Source of the DNA: Spirochaetota bacterium
GTDB taxonomy: Bacteria; Spirochaetota; UBA4802; JAFGDQ01
Assembly (NCBI GenBank): GCA_034190085.1
Contig: JAXHTS010000078.1
Coordinates: 1-64,000, forward strand
Length of the DNA stretch: 64,000 bases
Reading direction: 5' to 3'
Shown piece by piece: positions 28,221-30,743 of the stretch. The position numbers were made by a program, and so were the translations under genes. The notes beneath the pieces were generated by a model that worked only from the letters and a program-made list of their open reading frames with translations, did no database searches and was not told the origin of the DNA. Every line of letters begins with the position of its first letter. The first letter of the stretch is position 1.

Positions 28221-28248
28221 AAAGGGGATCATGATTTCCCCTTTTTTT
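28221..28248 (+). terminator. Strong intrinsic terminator after rpoD
   Basis: AAAGGGGA at 28221-28228 pairs with TCCCCTTT at 28237-28244; the T run spans 28242-28248. It lies 28 bases after the rpoD stop codon. Confidence 0.85.
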
Positions 28249-28364
28249 AGTTTTTAATGGACATATCAAAATGCAAATGCTATTATATCCCTTTCTGATT
28301 TGAAGATTGACTTATTTAAGACTATCTTATTGATTTAATATGCAAAATTTGTTAATTAGAGAAA

Positions 28365-30743
28365 ATGACTTATATTAATGATGACAAAATAACAATTATT
28401 GGAGCAGGTTCTTGGGGTACTGCAATTGCAAAAGTGATAGCAGAGAATAATCCTGTGCTTACAATAAAATTATGGGCTAGAGGGAAATCAGTAATTAATT
28501 TGATTAATGAGACTAGAGAGAATAGCTTATACCTACCTGGGGTCAAGCTGCCTAGCAATGTTATAGTAACCAACAATCTAAAGTATTCTTTGGAAGAATC
28601 AAATATTGTTCTACTTGCCACTCCATCAAAGGCTGTTTATGATACTAGTTTAAGGATTGAAAAATATATATCCGTTAATTCACATTTGGGTTATCTCTCA
28701 AAGGGCTTTTGCAGGGTAAATAATGAAATACTTACTATATCTGATACGATCACCAAGGCTATACCCTTTCTTGAGGGAAGAGTTGCAGCTATATATGGAC
28801 CAAGCCATGCCGAAGAGGTGGGTGATGGATTCCAAACATGTATAACTGTTGCGGGTATATTTAGAGAGACCAGGGAGGTATTTGTAAAACTCCTTTCCTG
28901 TAGTTATATTGGATGCAGAGAAACCGATGACATTAAAGGCGTAGAGTTGGGAGGGGCCTTGAAAAATCCTGCTGCAATTGCTGTAGGTATGATTAGCATC
29001 CTACCGCGCTGTGGGGACAATCTTTCAGGTGCTCTGATATCAGAGGCATTTAAGGAGATATTGAAGATATGTAGTCTTTTTAATGTAAGAGAGGAAACAC
29101 TTTTTGACATCTCAGGCTTGGGAGACCTTATCACTACTTCTCTGAGTGATCTCAGCAGAAACAGACGCTTTGGAAAGGATATTGCTGAACAAATTGTGCA
29201 GACAGGGAAGTCAATAGGCCTGTACGATAAACTTTTAATGCGATTTCGTCCAGATACTGTTCTTGAAAAGATGAGTCAAAGATTTAATTATTTAGCAGAG
29301 GGTGCTTATGCTATTGAACCAATAATTGAGTTGGCTGACAAAGCAAATATTTCTATACCCGTTTATAAGTCCCTGTATGAGATCCTGTTAAATAAGCGTG
29401 ATCCAGAACTTCTGATTCAAACAGTTAAAAATCCAGAAAGATTTGAGGAGATATTTGAGAGTTCTAGGATTCAGGTTTCAAAGAGAAAGAGGGGTATGGA
29501 GAAGGCAAGGGGCACTATTTTTAAGAACATTATAGTCTCAAACGCTCTCGCTAGAATGACTGAAAATGATGATTTTAAGAAAAAAATATTGGATACCAAG
29601 AGTTCAATTCTAAATAATATTGTAAATGAAGATAGTATAAATTATAAACACAATAGGGAATTCATTGAAAAGGAATGTACATTATTCAAGCAGATAGATA
29701 ACAGAAATTTTGAAAGAGTCTTGGAGGATATTTGTAAATTATATGTGGAGGAGACATGTGATAATTTTAATTATATAGCGTTCAAGCTTTTTGTTAAATA
29801 TGTAAAGTTAATCAATCTGAAGAATATATTATATCTTAAATCCTATGGCAAGAGAATGTTTGGAAACAATATTAAGATATCCGGACACCTGAAGATCGTA
29901 CAGAAAATAATCAACACCTCTCATGTTGTTTATGTGTCTACGTATAGAAGTTATTATGACTTTGCTTATATAGGTATGGCTATTGATAAATATAGACTTC
30001 ACGTGCCCAGGTTCTTTGTGGATAAATGCATAATAAATAGCAGATTTAAGAGATATTTTCTAAAGCTAATGGGTGGATATGTCATAGATACGAACAGACT
30101 TTACAATCCTATTTACAGGGAAATTACTGAGACCTATTTATCCACTTTAATTGAACATGGGGTACAGGTACTTTTCTTCCCAGAGTTAGAGATATCAAAA
30201 GATGGGAAGATTGGAAAAATTGATCAGGATTTTCCTTCACTTATTATGAAATCTCTATATAAGAATTCGGAAGAGATCGCCCTTATACCAATTGAGGTCT
30301 CATATTATCAAAGACCCTTGGTGAATAATAATGATTCAACAAAAGTATTAACTGTCAAGAATGTGCTTAATAACAGGGCAAGGGTTAATTTCTCTGATCC
30401 AATCATCACATCTGATTTATTAAATACAGATAAATTTATTTCACATATCACTGACATCATAAACCTTAAGTGGAAAACAGATTCATATATTTTTCCACAT
30501 TATATCTTTTGCAGGATTATTAGAGAAAATAACTATGAACTTGCTATGGATGATGCTCGAAAAGCTATTGAGCATTTTTTGCAACATCTAAATATGGAAA
30601 AAAGATACAAGGCCAAGAGCATCCTGAAGAAGGGGATAGAGTTCATTGAAAAAAATAATATCGGCCAGCAACGGGATGGTAGAATAATAATCATGAAAAA
30701 GGACGATATTGATTATTATTCAAATTTGATTACTTACAATTGA
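28365..30743 (+). CDS. gpsA: GpsA fused to a PlsB-like acyltransferase domain with a degenerate active site
   Basis: 792 residues against about 335 for normal GpsA. Residues 8-345 are NAD(P)-dependent glycerol-3-phosphate dehydrogenase: GAGSWGTAIA (13-22), GPSHAEE (145-151), catalytic Lys200 in GGALKNPAAI and SRNRRFG (264-270). Residues about 430-700 resemble glycerol-3-phosphate acyltransferase PlsB. There the HX4D motif reads YRSYYD (527-532), with Tyr527 (codon TAT at 29943-29945) in place of the catalytic His, and the block normally like EGGRSRTG reads ELEISKDG (607-614). The dehydrogenase should make sn-glycerol 3-phosphate; the second domain could bind it or an acyl carrier without catalysis. 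The frame is continuous, so this is not a decayed neighbour. Confidence 0.85.
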   Translation: MTYINDDKITIIGAGSWGTAIAKVIAENNPVLTIKLWARGKSVINLINETRENSLYLPGVKLPSNVIVTNNLKYSLEESNIVLLATPSKAVYDTSLRIEKYISVNSHLGYLSKGFCRVNNEILTISDTITKAIPFLEGRVAAIYGPSHAEEVGDGFQTCITVAGIFRETREVFVKLLSCSYIGCRETDDIKGVELGGALKNPAAIAVGMISILPRCGDNLSGALISEAFKEILKICSLFNVREETLFDISGLGDLITTSLSDLSRNRRFGKDIAEQIVQTGKSIGLYDKLLMRFRPDTVLEKMSQRFNYLAEGAYAIEPIIELADKANISIPVYKSLYEILLNKRDPELLIQTVKNPERFEEIFESSRIQVSKRKRGMEKARGTIFKNIIVSNALARMTENDDFKKKILDTKSSILNNIVNEDSINYKHNREFIEKECTLFKQIDNRNFERVLEDICKLYVEETCDNFNYIAFKLFVKYVKLINLKNILYLKSYGKRMFGNNIKISGHLKIVQKIINTSHVVYVSTYRSYYDFAYIGMAIDKYRLHVPRFFVDKCIINSRFKRYFLKLMGGYVIDTNRLYNPIYREITETYLSTLIEHGVQVLFFPELEISKDGKIGKIDQDFPSLIMKSLYKNSEEIALIPIEVSYYQRPLVNNNDSTKVLTVKNVLNNRARVNFSDPIITSDLLNTDKFISHITDIINLKWKTDSYIFPHYIFCRIIRENNYELAMDDARKAIEHFLQHLNMEKRYKAKSILKKGIEFIEKNNIGQQRDGRIIIMKKDDIDYYSNLITYN

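Follow-up and report, generated by a model that had tools for sequence, protein, structure and literature searches.

The window analysed here, a DNA stretch of 64,000 nucleotides from a Spirochaetota genome, contains a gene in which a glycerol-3-phosphate dehydrogenase, GpsA, continues in the same frame into a domain of the PlsB type, which, judging from the residues at its active-site positions, is very likely a pseudo-acyltransferase. The explanation which best accounts for the findings as a whole, and which we consider rather probable, is that of a GpsA carrying a pseudoenzyme PlsB-type domain, ancestrally bifunctional, and kept as a docking or regulatory module. The product of GpsA is the substrate of PlsB, the two acting where membrane lipid synthesis begins. 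A search of the literature for GpsA-PlsB fusions, or for PlsB pseudoenzymes, found no published description.

The continuous 792-codon frame, already reported in a preliminary description of this DNA, was confirmed. It is a single open frame starting with an ATG, and the opposite strand contains many stops in the same interval. The gene is present in single copy in the genome from which the window derives (G000 hereafter; 4.27 Mb, 96% complete). Its features are collected in Table 1. Between rpoD and the fusion gene, at positions 28221-28250 of the window, a terminator-like sequence, GGGGATCATGATTTCCCC, followed by a T run, was recognized by eye; with such an element ahead of it, the fusion gene may have its own promoter there.

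Table 1. Features of the fusion gene and of its predicted product (positions within the window)
Feature	Position	Strand	Basis
GpsA-pseudoPlsB fusion gene (second half very likely inactive), 792 aa, one frame	28365..30743	+	open frame; present in 39 order genomes
GpsA domain (NAD-dependent glycerol-3-phosphate dehydrogenase), residues 8-355	28386..29429	+	Pfam; model superposed on 3k96
NAD-binding GxGxxG motif, residues 13-18	28401..28418	+	glycines invariant, 37/37 order members
Catalytic K200 and N201 (LKN motif)	28962..28967	+	invariant, 37/37
GpsA C-domain stretch, about residues 281-300	29205..29264	+	common to order and f34 fusions
Helical linker region, residues 370-500	29472..29864	+	invariant D466; conserved RKKGxE-type motif
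PlsB/GPAT1-fold domain, very likely a pseudo-acyltransferase, residues 501-690	29865..30434	+	PF01553; PlsB profile; Foldseek GPAT1
Motif I position: YRSYYD replacing HX4D (Y527, D532)	29943..29960	+	alignment with order, f34, PlsB
Motif II position: GGYVIDTNR, from G570	30072..30098	+	alignment
Motif III position: ELEISKDG (607-614) replacing EG[GT]RSRxG	30183..30206	+	alignment with order, f34
Motif IV proline P642	30288..30290	+	invariant, 51/51
C-terminal helical region, residues 691-792	30435..30740	+	model pLDDT mostly >89; shortened or lost in several members

The first half of the protein has all the features of a regular GpsA. Both the N- and C-terminal GpsA domains are matched in Pfam (E 2e-36 and 2e-33, respectively), and the score against the NF000942 family, 240.8 bits, is slightly below the cut-off of 257. 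When the full-length model (pLDDT 85) was fitted onto the Coxiella GpsA 3k96, the TM was 0.94 of the target and the rmsd 1.9. Residues K113, K200, D254, T258, R265 and N266 of the window protein were aligned to those of solved enzymes, and all of them, together with the glycines of the GxGxxG motif, N201, D218 and N219, are identical in the 37 members compared within the order of the window; the view of a complete dehydrogenase, with Lys200 and the NAD motif intact, was therefore well founded. Whole domain, fold and checked catalytic residues are thus those of known GpsA proteins (PF01210, PF07479; NF000942 family), from which the window protein differs by the addition of the C-terminal PlsB-type domain and of a stretch near residues 281-300, by eye absent from the best-aligned solved bacterial GpsA and modelled with low confidence at 288-294. 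In each of the four genomes tested, G000 and three order-mates (G005, G007 and G012), the fusion is the one GpsA found. Since the catalytic residues are invariant, and no GpsA other than the fusion was found in G000, the dehydrogenase domain should be active.

The relationship of the second half to acyltransferases is less immediate: a PDB search with the window protein as a single sequence matched GpsA structures alone, and profiles and a structural model were needed to bring the kinship out. Pfam reports a PF01553 match at residues 514-644 (E 2e-7), and a profile built from 36 fusion members aligns, along about 230 columns, with a profile of genuine PlsB proteins from the order of the window (probability 97.8, E 7e-13). 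When the model of residues 370-792 (pLDDT 86, pTM 0.87) was compared by Foldseek with the PDB, human GPAT1 (8e4y) was the best match (E 1.6e-11), followed by squash GPAT and, in third place, by PlsC. In the acyltransferase tree, the fusion domain lies on the PlsB side of the split separating it from PlsC (support 100/98). Profile, fold and tree concur in upholding the PlsB kinship originally proposed, and the structural comparison relates the C-terminal domain to acyltransferases; an origin from PlsC, considered as a candidate, is ruled out by tree and fold. With PlsB and mitochondrial GPAT1 (9vuq, 8e4y) the domain shares the fold, the order of motifs I-IV and the motif IV proline, found in 37 of 37 order members, whereas it lacks the catalytic His, the motif III arginine pair and the N-terminal PlsB region, its length being about 420 aa in the window fusion against about 860-930 aa.

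In GPAT1, motif I is responsible for catalysis, while the arginines of motif III hold the phosphate of G3P (PMC11011501). The substitutions listed in the preliminary description, Tyr527 for the catalytic His and ELEISKDG for the Gly-Gly-Arg block, were both found as reported, with I610 and K612 standing where GPAT1 has its G3P-holding arginines. Position 527 is occupied across the order by F, A, Y, G, L, N, W and other residues, His being absent in 35 of 37 members; the two carriers are sister sequences (L012 and L019, reading HKN[VI]ND), and both are without the motif III arginines. The complete arginine pair is found in none of the 37 members and a single arginine in four. In the genuine PlsB proteins of relatives, H368, D373, E447, R450 and R452 are invariant. 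These figures uphold the proposed inactivation of the acyltransferase site. A practical consequence concerns annotation, as PF01553 will label the domain as an acyltransferase, very probably wrongly.

The fusion is not a peculiarity of G000. A continuous gene, containing GpsA plus the additional domain, was found in families f1, f2, f4, f5, f6 and f7 of the order; in family f3, an ordinary stand-alone GpsA is found instead. Outside f3, the fusion is present in 39 of 42 genomes, G000 included, and in two of the 39 it is broken by a contig end or by a run of N; as for the three genomes without it, completeness is only 73% in one and 90% in the other two. A contig search with a narrower alignment of the fusion returned 7 named loci, all from uncultured Spirochaetota MAGs. 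The G000 assembly is a draft made of 86 contigs, and one might accordingly suspect that the fusion results from errors in sequencing or assembly, or that two neighboring genes were joined by chance. The same fused frame, however, lies behind dnaG and rpoD in every locus of relatives checked, followed in most loci by a LOG-family gene, an unknown ORF, folC and aroE, and nearly all members show the altered motifs. With His in only 2 of 37 homologues at position 527, the order does not display the majority of His which would point to a sequencing error in the window. Recurrence of the altered motifs rules out a sequencing error, and a chance join is ruled out by the number of genomes carrying the gene and by the conserved synteny; the probability left to artefacts of this kind is negligible.

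By searching 393 genomes of the phylum, a second group of fusions was found in the distant family f34, with matches in 16 genomes (E from ~1e-47 to 1e-61). These proteins have the same domain order as the window protein (14 out of 14 sequences read through), and homology includes the linker and extends over the full length. Unlike those of the order, they carry intact acyltransferase motifs, H[RK][ST]H[LI]D and EGTRSR, in all 14 sequences, and one of them matches the solved PlsB (9vuq) and GPAT1 by sequence alone. Since His is present in 14 out of 14 of these homologous fusions, the loss of the 527 His belongs to the order of the window. In f34 it is the GpsA half that evolves fast: K200, D254, R265 and N266 are kept, but D218 is replaced in all sequences and K113 is lost in one, and a separate GpsA is present in 13 of the 14 genomes tested. 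One f34 fusion (L169, G195:C1) is split into two overlapping frames, of 568 and 169 aa, possibly because of a frameshift or of an assembly error.

The two halves were also compared by trees, built on few and distant groups. In the GpsA tree, the fusions of the order and those of f34 cluster together (SH-aLRT 96), to the exclusion of stand-alone GpsA proteins; the stem of the order measures 0.48 and that of f34 2.02. In the acyltransferase-domain tree, where the two sets of fusions are weakly joined (support 88/60), the relation is reversed, with stems of 1.76 and 0.60, respectively.

A separate, intact PlsB is encoded by 36 of the 39 fusion-bearing genomes, and PlsY by some. In G000, PlsB, PlsX and PlsY were looked for genome-wide and not found, PlsB not even by profile; the presence of a separate plsB or plsY, a point raised in the preliminary description, is thus verified for most fusion-bearing genomes but not for G000. 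G000 is left with no recognised enzyme to carry out the first acylation, that of G3P, though nearly all order-mates have PlsB; loss in the assembly and an unrecognised enzyme are both possible. Other PF01553 proteins of G000 are a typical PlsC (L031), a 216-aa relative (L032) and an acyltransferase-hydrolase fusion (L033), while L035 is a weak match within a very long ORF. In a further 730-aa frame of the same genome (L084, G000:C50), an acyltransferase-like part (NHFTRME, FPEGQ) precedes an apparent alpha/beta hydrolase. Many order-mates also encode a distinct PlsB-related family of about 510 aa, featuring NHRSN[IV]D (L117-L125, L127 and L128), which was not found in G000.

As some protein must start phospholipid synthesis in G000, it might be supposed that the fused domain still performs acyl transfer by means of other residues (D532, R549 or a displaced base), or that it has some other chemistry. 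The Asp of HX4D, D532, is indeed kept in 31 of 37 order members, and P548-R549 are invariant among the 31 less degraded ones. The intact f34 form, however, conserves these residues just as well, and they should thus not be regarded as replacements; nor does any residue consistently take the place of the His or of the motif III arginines among the 37 order members. The use of different chemistry, one of the options originally put forward, is therefore unsupported, and we consider catalysis of any such kind very improbable.

The degree of constraint acting on the domain was estimated by dN/dS (Nei-Gojobori) in the closest member pairs, and is 0.14-0.16, at dS 0.45-1.0, against 0.07-0.09 for the GpsA of those pairs: the C-terminal domain is under purifying selection, about half as tight as that on GpsA. 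Constraint is uneven: family f5 has a strongly degraded domain, and several members are without the tail; the ORFs of some members are shorter, 641-738 aa. Both the faster evolution of the domain and these signs of degradation speak for the main rival explanation, according to which an old acyltransferase survives in the C-terminal half as a tolerated remnant, slowly decaying and with a folding role only, such that its truncation would destabilise GpsA; the state of the domain in f5 and the missing tails would fit slow decay too. The dN/dS values of the closest pairs are nonetheless those of a domain still under selection, no internal stop occurs in the order's sequences read, and 27 columns show at least 87% conservation among 31 members, with many of these columns common to the active-looking f34 form. 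On these grounds, we regard a mere remnant as unlikely.

The history which we propose, based on sequence comparison, is that the GpsA-PlsB fusion probably arose once, coming to the two distant groups by descent or by transfer, that it was probably bifunctional at first, and that each lineage then let a different half drift. The ancestral protein would have converted DHAP to G3P, and G3P to lysophosphatidate. In the order of the window, acylation would have been handed to a separate full-length PlsB, a step not visible in G000, given the outcome of the searches described above, and each lineage would have let drift the half it had in duplicate. The dead domain would have been retained as a non-catalytic module by which GpsA docks to the membrane or to the acyltransferase (PlsB); alternatively, it may sense the acyl donor or a lysophospholipid and tune GpsA. 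In both cases, the supply of G3P would track membrane synthesis. We place the chances of such a docking or regulatory role at about even. A regulatory or channelling module had been suggested from the start, and this is still the best reading of the dead half. As the fused domain is without the catalytic His, it is itself an unlikely recipient of channelled G3P, and only a hand-over to a separate PlsB would be sensible. In E. coli, flux into membrane lipids is set by post-translational control of PlsB (PMC7439487).

The two fusion lineages show how one half of an enzyme can lose its chemistry and be retained; derived from one ancestral fusion, one with its acyltransferase site and the other with its GpsA, they would offer a comparative system for the study of dead enzyme halves.

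A further fusion, of about 700 aa and with the domains in reversed order, was found in f34 genomes and in one f11 genome (L209-L214). Its acyltransferase comes first, with intact motifs (H-x-SHLD, FPEGTRSR); the GpsA-like domain behind it has lost GxGxxG and reads Asp instead of Asn in the SRNR motif; here, unlike in the order fusion, the GpsA partner is, from its residues, most likely degenerate. In the trees, the acyltransferase of the reversed fusion is placed with PlsC and its GpsA forms a long branch of its own, which makes an independent origin most likely. It is tempting to generalize, quite tentatively, that at least two joinings of GpsA and an acyltransferase occurred in Spirochaetota, one of the GpsA-PlsB type and one of a PlsC-type acyltransferase with GpsA, and that each lineage retained both halves even though catalysis was lost or loosened in one of them, the pseudo-half, taken from the neighbouring step of the pathway, possibly acting as a built-in sensor or dock that links the provision of G3P to the synthesis of membrane lipids. 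Dunaliella salina likewise has a GPDH joined to another enzyme-type domain (6iuy), but there the partner is not an acyltransferase and is, presumably, a phosphatase.
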